From Acidilobaceae archaeon (GTDB taxonomy: Archaea > Thermoproteota > Thermoprotei_A > Sulfolobales > Acidilobaceae): 64,000 nucleotides of DNA. Below the pieces are notes generated by a model, which made no database searches, was not told where the DNA came from, and saw only the letters and a list, made by a program, of their open reading frames with translations. Numbering within the stretch: the stretch's first letter is position 1; every line of letters starts with the position of its first letter. The stretch spans positions 1-64,000 of the forward strand of contig JAOAKH010000006.1 in NCBI GenBank assembly GCA_026413755.1, in the 5' to 3' direction. Position numbers and translations under genes: made by a program. Below, piece by piece: positions 5,113 to 27,547 of the stretch.

Positions 5113-5923
5113 TCTCTAGCGCCCTGCAGCAGGAACACTTGCGCTCCTCTGGCTCGCCGGAGAGCTGCGGCACCAGCTCGTAGAGGAGCTTCTTAGCCTT
5201 CTGAGCGTTCTCGCTCATGACCCTCATGACCTCCTCCGCTGTAACGGGCCTCTCGGCCCAAACGTCGTAGTCAGTGACCATAGCTATGGTGGCGTAGCAC
5301 AGCTGGGCCTCGCAGGCTAGGTTTATCTCGGGCACCAGCGTCATGCCTATTATGTCAGCGCCGAAGACCTCCTTCCAGACCTTGCTCTCTGCGCGAGTGG
5401 AGAAGCGGGGCCCCTCTATGCACACATAGGTCCCCCTTGGGTGCACAGGGATGCCCAGCCTGCCTGCTGCCTCCACTATTTTCTCCCTGAGGCTCTGGCA
5501 GAAGGGGTCTGCCATGCTTACGTGCACCGTGACGGGCCCGTCGAAGAAAGTGTAGTGCCTCCTGTTCTTCGTCATGTCTATGAACTGATCTGGCACCACG
5601 AAGTCTCCTGGCTTGTAGTCCCACCTGAGGCTGCCTACCGCTGAAACGCTCACTACCCACTTAACGCCCAAGGACTTAAGCGCCCAGATGTTCGCCCTGT
5701 AGTTTATGGAGTGGGGAGGGAACCTGTGGCCCCTCCCGTGCCTCGGCAAGAAGGCTACCCTCACGCCCTTGACCTCGCCGACTATTATGTAATCGGAGGG
5801 GCTACCGTAGGGGGTGTCCACTTTGATCTCCTTTGCTCCCTCCACTATGCCAGGATCGTATAGCCCAGAGCCGCCTATGATGCCCACGTGAGCCCTCTCC
5901 TGGGGAGGTATCACCCCTATCAC
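5099..5923 (-). CDS. mtnP: S-methyl-5'-thioadenosine phosphorylase (MTAP II type)
   Basis: A 274-residue member of the PNP/MTAP superfamily that cleaves MTA to adenine and methylthioribose-1-phosphate. [11 protein letters not shown] near the N-terminus, [28 protein letters not shown] and GMTLVPE are family motifs. A CSCC cluster near the C-terminus recalls the stabilising CXC disulfide reported for archaeal MTAP II enzymes. GTG start with a TATA-like element about 28 bp upstream that also faces pth2. It belongs with the MAT and decarboxylase genes of the window in SAM/polyamine salvage. Confidence 0.92.
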
Positions 5924-19193: not shown

Positions 19194-19251
19194 GGGGTCA
19201 GAGATGCAGGGCCTCTTCATCTATCGCTTTTCCCCGTGCTCCTCATCCCCC
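19194..19251 (-). ncRNA. candidate box C/D guide sRNA
   Basis: On the minus strand, in order: stem GGGG, one base, C box ATGAGGA (19240-19246), 12-nt guide, degenerate D' GCGA, 3 nt, C' box ATGAAGA (19214-19220), 12-nt guide GGCCCTGCATCT, D box CTGA (19198-19201), stem CCCC. C and C' each match RUGAUGA at 6 of 7 positions, and both guides have the canonical 12 nt. The terminal stem is only 4 bp. It lies in the 156-bp gap after aspS (19120-19275) and would be cotranscribed with nop5-flpA-aspS. Targets not identified. Confidence 0.55.
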
Positions 19252-19275: not shown

Positions 19276-20649
19276 TTATGGCGTCAGCCTCTCCGTGTCC
19301 CTCGGCAGGAGCCTTGCCTCCCTTATGTTCTGCAGCCCCAGCAGCTGCATGGTTATCCTCTCCAGCCCCATCCCGGCGCCGCCGTGGGGAGGGGCGCCGT
19401 GCTTGAAGAACTCCAGGTAGTACTCGAAGTCGTCCTCCTTCAGCCCCTTCTCCCTCAGGTTCTGCCTCAGCCTCTCGTAGCGGTGCTCCCTCTGGCCTCC
19501 AGTGACAACCTCCAGCCCCCTCATCAGGAGGTCGAAGCCGTACGTCCACTGCGGCTCCTCCTCCTTCCTCATGGTGTAAAAAGGCCTCACCTTCCAGGGG
19601 TACTCGGTCACGAAGATCAGGTCGGACTTGTGCTTCTCCCTAGCGTAGTTCCCCAGGAGCCTCTCCCCCTCGGGATCTAGGTCCTCTCCGTACGGCACCT
19701 TTTTGCCGTACTCCGCCAAGATCTCGTAGGCCTGCCTCATTGTCACCCTCGGCACCCTCTCTGGCACCCTCAACGGCTCTGCGCCGTGCTCCTCCAGCAG
19801 CTCCTTTACCTCGTGGCTCTCCTCCGCTATCCTGCGGAAGAAGCCCTCCACGAAGTCCATCACGTCGTTGTAGCTCTCTATGAAGCCCACCTCGATGTCG
19901 AGGGAGTGGTACTCGTTAAGGTGCCGCGTCGTGTGATGGGGCTCAGCCCTAAAGACGGGGCCTACCTCGAAGACCCTCTCGAGCCCTGCTATGACGGCCA
20001 TCTGCTTGTAGAATTGGGGGCTCTGGGCCAAGTAAACAGTCTTGCCGAAGTATATAACCGGGAACACGTCTGCCCCGCTCTCTGTGCCCGTGGCAACTAT
20101 CTTAGGGGTGAAAATTTCCGTGAAGCCGAGGGCTGAGAAGTGGTCCCTGAACTTCCTCGCCACCCAAGCCTTTAGCTTGAACACCGCTGAGACCTTCGGG
20201 TTCCTCACGTCGAGCCAGCGGTACCTAAGCCTGGTGGGCAGAGTCGCCTTCGTGCTGTCGTGTACCTCGAGCGGGAGGGACTCTAGCGGCGAGGAGTGGA
20301 CCTCCAGCTCCCTCCCCAGCAGCTCGAAGCCCTCCCTCGTCGGGGCCCTCCTCAGCACCCCCTTGACGCATATGACCGCCTCCTCCCTGAGCCCCAGCGC
20401 TGCGCTGAGGGCCTCCTGAGGCGTCTCCCCCTTCTTGAAGACCACCTGCAGGGTGCCGCTCCTGTCCCTCAGCACCACGAACCGTATTGCCCCCAAGTCC
20501 CTTATCCTGTGGGCCCAGCCGCAGAGCCTCAGCTCCTGGCCCTCTAGCTCAGCTCCCCTCTTTACGGCCTCCCTTACGAACAGCTCCTTGAGCAACCCTC
20601 TCCCCAGCGAGCTGCCGAGGTGCGAGCTTATATCTCGCCCTCCTCCCAC
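19276..20649 (-). CDS. aspS: aspartyl-tRNA synthetase, archaeal type (possibly non-discriminating)
   Basis: 457 residues, class II. N-terminal OB fold (GWAHRIRDLGAIRFVVLRD), motif 2 FRAEPHHTTRHLNEYHSLDIE, and motif 3 GAGMGLERITMQLLGL. At the position after GW-A, where discriminating archaeal enzymes have Trp (T. kodakarensis W26, recalled), this has His, which is linked to relaxed Asp/Asn tRNA recognition. GTG start at 20649 overlaps the previous gene by 22 bp. A TTG at 20595, with GGGAGAGGG before it and GATATAAGC 35 bp upstream, is a credible alternative. Confidence 0.94.
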   Translation of the reverse strand: MGGGRDISSHLGSSLGRGLLKELFVREAVKRGAELEGQELRLCGWAHRIRDLGAIRFVVLRDRSGTLQVVFKKGETPQEALSAALGLREEAVICVKGVLRRAPTREGFELLGRELEVHSSPLESLPLEVHDSTKATLPTRLRYRWLDVRNPKVSAVFKLKAWVARKFRDHFSALGFTEIFTPKIVATGTESGADVFPVIYFGKTVYLAQSPQFYKQMAVIAGLERVFEVGPVFRAEPHHTTRHLNEYHSLDIEVGFIESYNDVMDFVEGFFRRIAEESHEVKELLEEHGAEPLRVPERVPRVTMRQAYEILAEYGKKVPYGEDLDPEGERLLGNYAREKHKSDLIFVTEYPWKVRPFYTMRKEEEPQWTYGFDLLMRGLEVVTGGQREHRYERLRQNLREKGLKEDDFEYYLEFFKHGAPPHGGAGMGLERITMQLLGLQNIREARLLPRDTERLTP

Positions 20650-23677: not shown

Positions 23678-25015
23678 TTGAGCGCATACGGCTACTCTGG
23701 GAGGCTTGCGCGGCTGCTGGAGCGCTTGGGCATAGAGCCGGGCGACAAGGTGAGGGTGAGGAAGGGAGGAAGGGTCCTGGAGGGCATCGTAATGCCTAGC
23801 TACGGCAGCGGGGAGGTGCTGGTGATCAAGCTGGGCAACGGCTACAACGTGGGAGTTGAGGTGGAGGAGGGCAGCATAGAGAAGGTAGGGAGAGCAGAGA
23901 GGGGGCCGCCGGGGAGCCCCGTGCCGCTGCTTGAAAAGGTGGAGGTGGGCGAGGGGAGGGTCTTCGTGCTGGGCTGCGGCGGAACTGTGGCGAGCAGGGT
24001 GGACTACGAGACTGGTGCCGTAAGGCCCTACTTAACTGCAGAGGAGCTGGCGCTCAGCTCGCCTGAGATGCTCAGGTATGCCAGGATAGAAGCAAAGCAG
24101 CTGCTCTCAATACTCAGCGAGGACATGAAGCCCAGGCTATGGGAGGAGATAGTGAGGGAGACAGCAAAGGCAATAGAGGGGGGCTACGATGGGATCGTCA
24201 TAGCCCACGGGACGGACACTATGAGCTACACCGCCGCGGCCCTCTCTTTTGCCTTCCACAAGGGCCTCCCCGTCCCCATAGCCATGACAGGCGCTCAGAG
24301 GAGCAGCGACAGGCCCAGCAGCGACGCCTCCTTCAACCTTGTGGCTGCAACGCTTGTGGCAGCAAAGGCCCCCTTTGCAGAGGTCTCCGTAGTTATGCAC
24401 GGGGAGAGCGGCGACACCTACGCGCTGGCCCACAGGGGGGTGAGGGTGAGGAAGATGCACTCAAGCAGGAGGGACGCCTTCAGGTCCGTTAACGCGAGGC
24501 CGCTGGCGAAGGTCTGGCCCTACGAGGGGAAGATAGAACTCGTGGAGAGGGAGTTCAGGCGGAGGGGAGGGGAGCTCGTGGTGGAGAACGGCTTCGAGGA
24601 GAGGGTGGCCCTCATAAAGCACTTCCCGGGCATGATAGCGGAGGTAATAGAGGCCCTTCTGGACAAGGGCTTCAGGGGGTTAGTGATAGAGGGCACTGGG
24701 CTAGGCCACGTTTCGAGCGACGCAATAGCTGCGCTAGAGAGGGCGAGAGAGATGGGGGTCCCTGTGGTAGTTTCTACCCAAACGATCTTCGGCAGGGTAA
24801 ACCTTAACGTCTACAGCACAGGGAGGAGGATGCTGGCAGCGGGCGCAATACCTGTAGAGGATATGCTGGCAGAGGTAGCATACGTGAAGCTCTCCTGGGC
24901 CCTCGCGAGGACGAGGGAGCTGCAGGAGGTAAGGAGGATCATGACGACAAACTTAGCGGGGGAGATCAGCTATTTCCACGGGATGGAGCTGTTCCCGGTG
25001 AGCCCAAATGCTTGA
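23678..25015 (+). CDS. gatD: Glu-tRNA(Gln) amidotransferase subunit D (asparaginase-like)
   Basis: 445 residues from a TTG preceded by GGGAG and a TATA-like element 30 bp upstream. After an N-terminal beta domain (GDKVRVRKGG), the L-asparaginase I fold follows: GCGGTVASRVDYETGAVRP with the nucleophile Thr, HGTDTMSYTAAALSF with the second Thr-Asp pair, then TGAQRSSDRPSSDASFNL. It supplies ammonia from glutamine to GatE. A longer form from a GTG at 23471 is possible. Overlaps gatE by 8 bp. Confidence 0.93.
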   Translation: MSAYGYSGRLARLLERLGIEPGDKVRVRKGGRVLEGIVMPSYGSGEVLVIKLGNGYNVGVEVEEGSIEKVGRAERGPPGSPVPLLEKVEVGEGRVFVLGCGGTVASRVDYETGAVRPYLTAEELALSSPEMLRYARIEAKQLLSILSEDMKPRLWEEIVRETAKAIEGGYDGIVIAHGTDTMSYTAAALSFAFHKGLPVPIAMTGAQRSSDRPSSDASFNLVAATLVAAKAPFAEVSVVMHGESGDTYALAHRGVRVRKMHSSRRDAFRSVNARPLAKVWPYEGKIELVEREFRRRGGELVVENGFEERVALIKHFPGMIAEVIEALLDKGFRGLVIEGTGLGHVSSDAIAALERAREMGVPVVVSTQTIFGRVNLNVYSTGRRMLAAGAIPVEDMLAEVAYVKLSWALARTRELQEVRRIMTTNLAGEISYFHGMELFPVSPNA

Positions 25016-26894
25016 CTACAAGGCCTTGGGCTTAAAAGTGGGGCTAGAGGTCCACCAGCAGCTGCTCACCAAGAGGAGGCTGTTCTCCCACGCGCCGCCG
25101 GAGCTCTCTGAGGAGGCAGGGGAGGTGCTCGTAAGGAGGCTGAGGCCGACGAGGAGCGAGCTAGGCGAGGTGGACCCTGCGGCCCTCTTCGAGTGGAGGA
25201 GGGGGAGGTACTACGAGTACGAGGTCTCCAACGCATCGCTCGTCGAGGCAGACGAGGAGCCCCCCCACGAGCTTGACAGGGAGGCGCTAGTCATAGCGCT
25301 CGCGGCAGCGCTAGCGCTCGGCTCCACGCCGGTTGACGAGGTCTACGTAATGAGGAAGATAGTGATAGACGGCAGCAACACCACGGGCTTCCAGCGCACG
25401 GCGCTGATAGCCATGGGCGGGAGCATAGAGGTGGGCGGCAAGGAGGTTCCGATAGAGACCATATGCCTCGAGGAGGACGCTGCTAGGAAGGTGGGGGAGG
25501 AGGGCGCAAAGGTCTCCTACAGGCTCGACAGGCTGGGGGTGCCGCTGATAGAGATAGCTACAGCGCCGGTCATCTCCTCGCCAGAGGAGGCAAAGGAGGT
25601 GGCCCTTGCTATAGGGAGGCTCCTGAGGCTCACGGGGAAGGTGAGGAGAGGCATAGGGACCATTAGGCAGGACTTGAACGTGAGCATAGCAGGGGGGGCA
25701 AAGGTCGAGATAAAGGGGGTGCAGCAGCTGGAGCTGATCCCGAAGGTGATCGAGCAGGAGGTAAGGAGGCAGCTGGCGCTGCTGGAGATAAGGGAGGAGA
25801 TGAGGAGGAGGCTCTCCGGAGATCCGGCTTCGCCGCCGCAGGACCTCACGGCCCTCCTGTCCTCCACGAAGAGCAAGGTGCTGAGGAGGGCAATAGATAG
25901 CGGAGGGGCGGTGCTGGGCATGAAGCTGAGGGGCATGAGGGGGCTGCTGGGGAAGGAGGTCTCGCAGGGCAGGCGCTTCGGGACTGAGCTCGCTGACTAC
26001 GCGAGGTTCTACGGCGGTGTGAGCGGGCTCATACACAGCGACGAGCTGCCGGGCTACGGGATAACTGCGGAGGAGGTGAAGGCAATAGAAGGGGCGCTGG
26101 GGGTAGGCAGCGAGGACGCCTTTGTGCTCGTGGCAGACCAGAGGGAGAGGGCGCTGAAGGCCCTGGAGGCCGTGGCAGAGAGAGTTAGGGCGGCCCTCGA
26201 GGGGGTGCCTGAGGAGACCAGGGCAGCGCTGGAGGACGGCACAACGCGCTTCATGAGGCCTCGGCCGGGCGCAGCGAGGATGTACCCTGAGACCGACATA
26301 CCCCCAGTGAGGGTGGGGAGGGAGCTCCTAGAGGAGGCGGAGAAGCTCAAGCCGGAGCCCCTCTCTGCAAAGCTAGAGAGGTTCGCGAAGCTCGGCATGT
26401 CGAAGGAGCTTGCGCTCGAGGCAATAGGCGACGTGAGGCTGGACCTCATAGAGAGGCTCATAGCGAAGTACTCCTCAAGCGTGCCGCCGAGCGTCATAGC
26501 CTCCCTCGTGGTGGTCACCCTCAGGGGCCTCAGGGGGAAGGGGGTGGACGTGGAGGCGATAGCTGACGAGCGCATAGAGGAGCTCGTGGACATGATAGCC
26601 AGGGGGGAGGTCTCGAAGGAGGCAGCGGAGGCAATACTGGAAGCGGTAGGCAAGGAGGGCATTAGCTGCAGGGAGGCAGCGGAGAGGCTGGGGCTGAGGG
26701 CAGTGAGCGAGCAGGAGGCAGAGGCGATAGTGGGGGAAATAGTGAGGGAGAGCTTGGCGGAGGTTAGGGCTAGAGGTCAAAAGGCAGTTAGCCTTATTAT
26801 GGGCAGGGCTATGAGTAAACTAAGGGGAAGGATAGACGGAAAGAAGGTGGCTGAGATAGTGAAGAGGAAAGTGGAGGAGGCGCTGCGCGAATGA
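25008..26894 (+). CDS. gatE: Glu-tRNA(Gln) amidotransferase subunit E
   Basis: 628 residues, GatB/GatE kinase-transferase. KVGLEVHQQLLTKRRLFS opens the cradle domain; IDGSNTTGFQRT, EEDAARKVGE and RRGIGTIRQDLNVSI are conserved. An AspRS-like insert (region near GMKLRGMRG to YGITAEE) and the C-terminal YqeY-type helices (to KRKVEEALRE) follow. It converts Glu-tRNA(Gln) to Gln-tRNA(Gln) with GatD. Its last codons and stop form the 5' stem and C box of an sRNA. Confidence 0.97.
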   Translation: MLDYKALGLKVGLEVHQQLLTKRRLFSHAPPELSEEAGEVLVRRLRPTRSELGEVDPAALFEWRRGRYYEYEVSNASLVEADEEPPHELDREALVIALAAALALGSTPVDEVYVMRKIVIDGSNTTGFQRTALIAMGGSIEVGGKEVPIETICLEEDAARKVGEEGAKVSYRLDRLGVPLIEIATAPVISSPEEAKEVALAIGRLLRLTGKVRRGIGTIRQDLNVSIAGGAKVEIKGVQQLELIPKVIEQEVRRQLALLEIREEMRRRLSGDPASPPQDLTALLSSTKSKVLRRAIDSGGAVLGMKLRGMRGLLGKEVSQGRRFGTELADYARFYGGVSGLIHSDELPGYGITAEEVKAIEGALGVGSEDAFVLVADQRERALKALEAVAERVRAALEGVPEETRAALEDGTTRFMRPRPGAARMYPETDIPPVRVGRELLEEAEKLKPEPLSAKLERFAKLGMSKELALEAIGDVRLDLIERLIAKYSSSVPPSVIASLVVVTLRGLRGKGVDVEAIADERIEELVDMIARGEVSKEAAEAILEAVGKEGISCREAAERLGLRAVSEQEAEAIVGEIVRESLAEVRARGQKAVSLIMGRAMSKLRGRIDGKKVAEIVKRKVEEALRE

Positions 26895-26946
26895 TGTCTA
26901 CTCCCGACTTCGAGGGGTGAGATGAAGGCATTTGGCTGACGCGCAG
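26883..26946 (+). ncRNA. box C/D sRNA overlapping the gatE stop codon
   Basis: Perfect 7-bp terminal stem CTGCGCG (26883-26889) with CGCGCAG (26940-26946). C box ATGATGT (26891-26897, 6/7), C' box GAGATGA (26919-26925, 6/7), 10-nt guide AGGCATTTGG, D box CTGA (26936-26939). D' is degenerate. The gatE stop TGA (26892-26894) lies within the C box. The D guide is complementary to CCAAATGCC(T), which I recall as a highly conserved archaeal/eukaryal large-subunit rRNA stretch beside helix 69. The D' side contains TACTCCCG, complementary to CGGGAGTA from the same rRNA neighbourhood. Confidence 0.8.
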
Positions 26947-27004
26947 GGATGAAGAGGCCGCTCCAGATTGAGCGGTGAAATCATCATGACGGGCTGACCT
27001 GCGC
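26941..27004 (+). ncRNA. second, tandem box C/D sRNA
   Basis: Perfect 7-bp terminal stem GCGCAGG (26941-26947) with CCTGCGC (26998-27004). C box ATGAAGA (26949-26955, 6/7), 12-nt guide GGCCGCTCCAGA, D' box TTGA (26968-26971), weak C' GTGAAAT (26975-26981), 12-nt guide CATCATGACGGG, D box CTGA (26994-26997). Its 5' stem is nearly the same segment as the 3' stem of the preceding sRNA, so only one of the two stems can form at a time in a joint transcript. Targets not identified. The 3' end lies antisense to the flavin reductase gene. Confidence 0.72.
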
Positions 27005-27547
27005 CCTGATCATTTTGCCCACCTCGTAGAACGTCCTCCCGGCGCCGTGCAGCAGCGGGCTCACCTTGCTAATGTCCCATCCCCACCTAGTGTACAGCTC
27101 CTTCCTGACGTAGGTAGCAACTACCTCGAAGACGTAAAGCCTCACCTCCCCCACGTCCATCATGGAGTGGAGCCTCCCCTCCAGGGAAGCTATAGCGTCG
27201 ACCCACCGGGGAGGCTCGACGTACTCGCTCCTCTCCAGCTTCAGCCCGAACTTAGCTACCTTGTCCACCTCCCTCCCTGAGACGCTGCCGAGCGCGTAAA
27301 CTAGCGACGCCTGGCCGCTGTGGGGGACGTTTATCGTAGCTTCCCTCCAGTGCTCCAGGCACTGGAAGGTGTAGCTCTCCCGATCTACTGCCACCGCGAC
27401 CGTAGGCGGCTCCTCGGAGACGGGCATGTTCCAGGAGGCGGGCATGGCGTTGAACCTGCCGTTAGGGCAGAAAGTTATGAGGACCACCGTGGGAGAGGGG
27501 TGTAGGACGTGGTAAAACTTGTAGCCGGCCTCCAGCTTAGAGAGCAA
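26984..27547 (-). CDS. flavin reductase-like (flavoredoxin) protein
   Basis: 187 residues with the FMN-binding split-barrel pattern: ITFCPNGRFNAMPASWNMPVS, AVAVDRESYTFQ and FTIN-like EATINVP. Such proteins bind FMN and reduce it or pass electrons; the partner is unknown. TTG start at 27547 after GAAGGGGAC; AAATATTAAC upstream is a TATA candidate. The 3' end runs antisense to the second C/D sRNA. Confidence 0.85.
   Translation of the reverse strand: MLSKLEAGYKFYHVLHPSPTVVLITFCPNGRFNAMPASWNMPVSEEPPTVAVAVDRESYTFQCLEHWREATINVPHSGQASLVYALGSVSGREVDKVAKFGLKLERSEYVEPPRWVDAIASLEGRLHSMMDVGEVRLYVFEVVATYVRKELYTRWGWDISKVSPLLHGAGRTFYEVGKMIRAQVSPS

Follow-up and report, generated by a model that had tools for sequence, protein, structure and literature searches.

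Two box C/D guide RNA genes with overlapping terminal stems behind gatE in an Acidilobaceae-like archaeon

Overlap between box C/D sRNA genes and the ends of open reading frames is a common arrangement in archaea; that such overlaps are known was noted in a preliminary description of the locus reported here. For about a quarter of the C/D sRNA genes of archaea the overlap is with the 3' end of an upstream gene, and in almost half of these cases the C box holds its stop codon (PMC7994747). sRNA genes that have a stop codon within their C box in this way (Tripp et al. 2017, summarised in PMC7994747) are probably co-transcribed with the gene upstream. Polycistronic clusters of two or three C/D sRNA genes are also described (PMC7994747), as are dicistronic tRNA-C/D sRNA precursors in Nanoarchaeum equitans, in which the neighbouring RNA supplies one end of the sRNA and RNase Z makes the cut (PMC3491384). 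The kink-turns of archaeal box C/D RNAs are folded by the binding of L7Ae (PMC5689011).

The locus analysed here lies in a window of 64,000 nucleotides from the genome of a crenarchaeal, Acidilobaceae-like organism (hereafter G000), whose closest comparison is the sister genome G001, Acidilobaceae archaeon SKYB59. Two box C/D sRNAs, sRNA1 and sRNA2, occupy positions 26883–27004 on the plus strand, directly behind gatE. As in the polycistronic clusters, the two are arranged in tandem on one strand; unlike those clusters, they are separated by a linker of only 9 nt, the bases of which enter the terminal stems of both RNAs. A literature search, with Tripp 2017 and Lui 2018 lying outside its range, found no account of linker bases that serve two terminal stems. 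As in N. equitans, the neighbouring RNA supplies an sRNA end, but here that neighbour is itself a second C/D sRNA. The Pyrococcus C/D sRNA families sR11 (RF01150), sR10 (RF01149) and snoPyro_CD (RF00095) of Rfam have the same box order as the RNAs of this locus, and sR10 carries the sRNA1 guide CUACUCCCG. All matches to these three families fall below their gathering scores, and their models contain no required long terminal stem, in contrast to the pair described here. At the gathering score, an Rfam search listed two tRNAs only and found neither sRNA1 nor sRNA2; in a relaxed search sRNA1 reached 31.6 bits against sR11, for which the gathering score is 39.

The upstream gene, gatE (25008–26894, plus strand), encodes glutamyl-tRNA(Gln) amidotransferase subunit E, with Pfam domains GatB_N, GAD and GatB_Yqey. 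The last part of its coding sequence includes the 5' arm of the sRNA1 terminal stem, CTGCGCG (26883–26889), followed by a single base, A26890, which forms the L1 position of the kink-turn. From C box to D box sRNA1 spans 26891–26939, with the C box ATGATGT (26891–26897), the D' guide (26899–26909), a degenerate D' box TCGA (26910–26913), the C' box (about 26917–26923), the D guide (26925–26935) and the D box CTGA (26936–26939). The D' box is CTGA or ATGA in homologues, where its register is unchanged. Directly after the D box comes the shared segment CGCGCAGG (26940–26947), in which positions 26940–26946 form the 3' arm of the sRNA1 stem and positions 26941–26947 the 5' arm of the sRNA2 stem.

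The L1 base of the sRNA2 kink-turn, G26948, separates the shared segment from the sRNA2 C box. From C box to D box sRNA2 spans 26949–26997, with the C box ATGAAGA (26949–26955), the D' guide (26957–26966), the D' box TTGA (26968–26971), the C' box (about 26975–26981), the D guide (26984–26992) and the D box CTGA (26994–26997). The 3' arm of its stem, CCTGCGC (26998–27004), runs antisense to the final codons of a flavin reductase-like gene (26984–27547, minus strand; Pfam Flavin_Reduct, 5.4e-28) that is convergent with gatE. The 3' end of this gene, an overlap that the preliminary description does not mention, covers the second half of sRNA2, including the D box and the 3' stem arm, and the gap between the two protein genes is made up wholly of sRNA. 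Since both reading frames run into the sRNAs, both outer stem arms consist of codons.

The distance from C box to D box is 49 nt in both RNAs, and each terminal stem is a perfect 7-bp helix that starts flush after the D box and ends one base before the C box. These pairings, together with the boxes and coordinates given in the preliminary description, were reproduced base for base. Both units have the geometry of a kink-turn, with three loop bases followed by tandem G.A pairs. The 3b:3n pair is U:U in sRNA1 and A:U in sRNA2, the 4b:4n pair G:C is present in both, and both C' boxes resemble GTGANAT. At the positions where the C boxes of sRNA1 and sRNA2 are variant, the variants are common among homologues. 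A different placement of the sRNA2 C box, GGGATGA, was considered and rejected: it breaks the kink-turn geometry, and the homologue GGGATGATGAAGCCGC in another genome (G131) places ATGAAGA at 26949. Taken with the conservation described below, these features support the identification of sRNA1 and sRNA2 as genuine C/D guide RNA genes with real stems.

The gatE stop codon TGA (26892–26894) does lie within the first C box, as had been proposed. The same overlap, with the TGA in the C box of the sRNA1 homologue, is found at five of eight loci examined in a Sulfolobaceae-like family and at one further locus (L322). At two loci (L312 and L315) the stop codon falls in the D' box, and at another (L308) a TAA ends gatE a few bases ahead of the C box. 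Because the stop codon is found in the C or D' box repeatedly, the overlap of gatE and sRNA1 extends across families of the order. The overlap at gatE is ordinary, and does not differ from the C-box overlaps of other archaeal sRNA genes; like them, sRNA1 is probably co-transcribed from upstream. Inspection of the upstream region by eye revealed no obvious TATA-like element where one would be expected.

Both RNAs belong to families that are kept independently of the neighbouring genes. A model of the sRNA1 family (R1) matches 187 of 214 genomes, order-wide, and many of the relatives examined have the two sRNA1 guides (TACTCCCGAC and AAGGCATTTG) shortly downstream of gatE. A model of the sRNA2 family (R2) matches 135 of the 214, with sRNA2 inverted in G004 and 2.3 kb distant in G002. 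The sRNA1-family stems are often at least 6 bp long. In an alignment of 34 sRNA1 homologues, double changes occur at all eight pairs of the terminal stem; the count of double-change cells is 76, where shuffling gives 39.6 (0/500). The covariation score of the stem is 0.558, compared with a shuffled mean of 0.216 and values of 0.10–0.29 when the arms are slid by one to three columns. The innermost pair alone is C-G in 23 homologues, G-C in 9, A-U in one and G.U in one. The sRNA1 terminal stem is therefore real, with strong compensatory change. Most relatives of sRNA2 have a stem of 0–4 bp and no strong flush stem; one family member (L178) has a stem of 7 bp with one wobble.

Complementarity of the guides was scored on the 23S rRNA of the sister, as the G000 assembly lacks its own. 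The sRNA1 D guide forms 11 bp with CCAAATGCCTT. The site of the sRNA1 D' guide, CGGGAGTA, lies about 31 nt upstream of the D-guide site and is matched over 8 bp. Beside this 8-bp pairing lies an A.C mismatch, the A of which is common in homologues. The sRNA2 D' guide forms 10 bp, one of them G.U, with the P-loop sequence CTGGGGCGGC, and the D guide forms 9 bp, again with one G.U, with CCGTCGTGA near helix 93. In the sister the change T26987C converts a G.U guide pair of sRNA2 to G-C. Three of the four guides hence fit conserved 23S sites well, the exception being the sRNA1 D' guide with its one mismatch. A search for other targets of this guide (GTCGGGAGTA) matched only the sRNA1 gene itself. 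The fifth-base rule would assign the sRNA2 D' guide to the residue that corresponds to E. coli G2251, for which Dennis et al. predicted modification in three archaea (PMC4644070). Besides G2251, tentative E. coli equivalents of the predicted 23S positions are A1938 and U2593. Judged from these pairings, sRNA1 and sRNA2 probably direct methylation of 23S rRNA.

Several observations adjoin these targets. A tRNA-like gene of G000 (L265, about 13104, plus strand) carries TGGAGCGGC, which matches the sRNA2 D' guide perfectly over 9 bp, so that a tRNA target for this guide is possible. A second C/D sRNA candidate in the same genome (L231, about 5430–5495, minus strand, contig C12) has a D' guide, TACTCCCGGC, nearly equal to that of sRNA1 and with a full 10-bp match where sRNA1 has its mismatch; its D guide, AACTTACCCG, is directed at the adjoining 23S stretch. 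In two relatives the 23S gene is broken by unrelated sequence beside the guide target sites, after CCAAATGCCTTGCCGGGTA and before ACCGTCGTGAG in G003 (L115), and before CTTAAGGTAGCC in G005 (L116). Introns near guided sites would look like these interruptions.

The rarity of the paired stems was gauged across the genome. At the given box spacing, 133 of 1,107,010 genome positions have a flush Watson-Crick stem of 7 bp or longer, and two such stems in tandem at the given spacing occur once in the 1.1 Mb genome, at 26883–27004. Among the 328 frames consisting of a C box and a following CTGA, only 2 have a 7-bp stem, and sRNA1 and sRNA2 are such frames. The paired 7-bp stems at this locus are not due to chance. 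A background of stem lengths came from an in-house C/D finder with rRNA complementarity as its score. It returned 79 candidates, compared with 50 when the rRNA was reversed as a control; for this reason only the best-formed candidates were used. These other likely C/D sRNAs of the genome have flush stems of 3–5 bp. One such likely C/D sRNA lies in the window itself, at 19198–19246 on the minus strand, behind an open reading frame on the same strand (19276–20649). It has the C box ATGAGGA, the D box CTGA, a D' guide, CGGGGAAAAGC, with 11 bp to the rRNA set, and a flush 4-bp stem, GGGG/CCCC.

The two stems of the tandem pair had been described as mutually exclusive unless the RNA is cut, which overstates the conflict. 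Only the full 7-bp helices are incompatible. The inner 4-bp halves, 26886–26889 with 26940–26943 and 26944–26947 with 26998–27001, have no base in common and leave G26948 as L1, so that both kink-turns can stand together on 4-bp stems. Nor would the suggested cut within the shared segment resolve the clash, as it divides and shortens both stems and frees neither fully. Nearest-neighbour energies, calculated with no protein, are −45.6 and −46.1 kcal/mol for the two 7-bp forms and −36.5 kcal/mol for the 4 + 4 bp form. The latter costs about 9 kcal/mol over either 7-bp form, in a calculation that leaves out the binding of L7Ae.

From this I consider it likely that, in the two sister species, two conserved guides for rRNA methylation form a compact dicistron in which their closing stems overlap. 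The two independently conserved guides would be packed head to tail between gatE and the convergent flavin reductase gene, the overlap of their stems being a product of compaction. Read-through from gatE would probably yield one dicistronic precursor. L7Ae would bind each C/D kink-turn, Nop5 and fibrillarin would follow, and the precursor would be cleaved or trimmed at its flanks and in the region of the 9-nt linker. Each RNA may need only the inner 4 bp of its stem, with the 4 + 4 bp formed side by side or after a cut at 26943/26944. sRNA1 would then guide 2'-O-methylation of two nearby sites in 23S domain IV, and sRNA2 that of the P-loop G (the E. coli G2251 equivalent) and of a U near helix 93. 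The two RNAs stand on one strand, 9 nt apart. The wide distribution of both families, the compensatory change in the sRNA1 stem, the fit of the guides to 23S sites, the 3–5 bp stems of other likely C/D sRNAs in the genome, and the recurrence of tandem pairs and of the stop-codon overlap behind gatE all favour this reading. What speaks against it is that both stems extend to 7 bp, beyond the inner 4, that most sRNA2 relatives have shorter stems, that the protein-free energy of the 4 + 4 bp form is higher by about 9 kcal/mol, and that the sRNA1 D' guide has its A.C mismatch.

As long stems are frequent in the sRNA1 family, the remaining surprise lies in the three outermost pairs of the sRNA2 stem. 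It is conceivable, though rather unlikely, that the guide RNAs are real and that the sRNA2 stem past its inner 4 bp is a coincidence of GC-rich sequence and coding constraint. This account differs from the compact dicistron only in taking the overlap as accidental, and the two are compatible. Both outer arms are indeed coding, the segments have the self-complementary GCGC in common, and the sRNA2 family mostly does without a strong flush stem. Against it, chance would yield the extra 3 bp in about 2% of cases, at about 0.26 per pair. Four-fold sites differ between G000 and the sister at 145 of 260 positions in gatE and at 55 of 88 in the flavin reductase gene (56–63%), whereas the synonymous positions of the arms are unchanged or changed to give a wobble pair. 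Over the outer arms and the shared segment 1 of 22 bases differs (C26883T, with a G.U pair retained). The shared segment, which is non-coding, is identical in all eight of its bases, and the CCTGCGC arm is identical as well. In this comparison of two genomes, in which two of the arms are coding, the near-identity supports a function for both stems.

Overlapping stems and the 9-nt linker are confined to G000 and its sister. Four further members of the genus were compared. In G005 the order of the two RNAs is unchanged, with 26 nt from the D box of sRNA1 to the C box of sRNA2. In G004 (L004/L033) a single guide-RNA gene appears to have been inverted: sRNA2 is encoded on the opposite strand, in convergent orientation to sRNA1, and is placed 3' of the flavin reductase gene. 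In G002 it is separate, about 2.3 kb away, and in G003 neither R1 nor R2 found a match. Of the covariation in relatives that the preliminary description had called for, the sRNA1 stem shows it clearly in its 34 homologues, while the shared-stem arrangement is absent from G002, G004 and G005.

This distribution bears on the more striking possibility, that the precursor is bistable. The shared segment would form the stem of either sRNA1 or sRNA2, each transcript would yield one guide with the other discarded, and the ratio could be set by the level of L7Ae, by temperature or by processing. The near-equal energies of the two 7-bp forms, the weaker 4 + 4 bp form in the protein-free calculation, the rarity of 7-bp flush stems in the genome and the full conservation of the shared segment in the sister would all suit a switch. 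I regard it as quite improbable, as the arrangement is limited to two sister species and missing in three other relatives examined, such that the two alternatives are not both conserved in relatives as would be expected of a bistable switch. In addition, with 4 + 4 bp stems the conflict does not arise, stems of this length are in line with those of the other sRNAs of the genome, and L7Ae-induced folding (PMC5689011) would stabilise the double form. Both guides also serve conserved rRNA sites, so there is no apparent reason to choose one. The further-reaching proposal, that one precursor gives either guide RNA and that competition for one 8-nt segment couples the output of the domain IV guide RNA to that of the P-loop and helix 93 guide RNA, is very doubtful. 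The earlier suggestion of a switching or processed dicistronic RNA is accordingly likely in its second part, the dicistron, and improbable in its first, of which there is no sign.

An uncut, double-length RNP with four guides, in which the first D box, the 9-nt linker and the second C box would form an internal kink-loop and the outer arms would pair through GCGC (26885–26888 with 27001–27004; forced fold −40.9 kcal/mol), is extremely unlikely, since this outer pairing of just 4–5 bp is weaker than either 7-bp stem, and since the two RNAs, which in relatives are apart, inverted or 2.3 kb distant, evidently work as separate units.

The locus combines two RNAs that are themselves ordinary and widespread with overlapping stems that are unusual and not obviously regulatory. 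Such a pair offers a natural test of the minimal room needed for two archaeal guide RNAs: the gap between convergent genes is filled by the two RNAs alone, and their outer stem arms coincide with codons of the neighbouring genes. Should one transcript give rise to both RNAs, the shortest workable closing stem and the place of processing would be fixed within a few bases; if only one matures per transcript, the two guide RNAs would be directly coupled. The linkage of gatE and sRNA1 across the order, with the gatE stop codon repeatedly inside a C or D' box, gives the locus a wider interest.

Tandem arrangements were also sought in the 214 genomes with the pattern TGATGA-N(28-45)-CTGA-N(3-9)-RTGATGA, which matched in 29, in none of them with two long closing stems, and so yielded no further example of a shared stem. 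Many of the matches are apparently coding, and several correspond to just the D'-C' part of a single RNA whose first guide is long; the pattern misses the pair at 26883–27004 itself because its C boxes are variant. In Desulfurococcaceae-type genomes a third conserved C/D sRNA (ATGATGAATATCCCC...GAGCGTGCTGA) lies behind sRNA1, at five loci (L042, L045, L061, L209 and L076), with linkers from 9 nt (L076) upward and with stems that do not overlap. As sRNA1 is paired with different sRNAs, tandem guides behind gatE appear to be a recurring layout with exchangeable partners.
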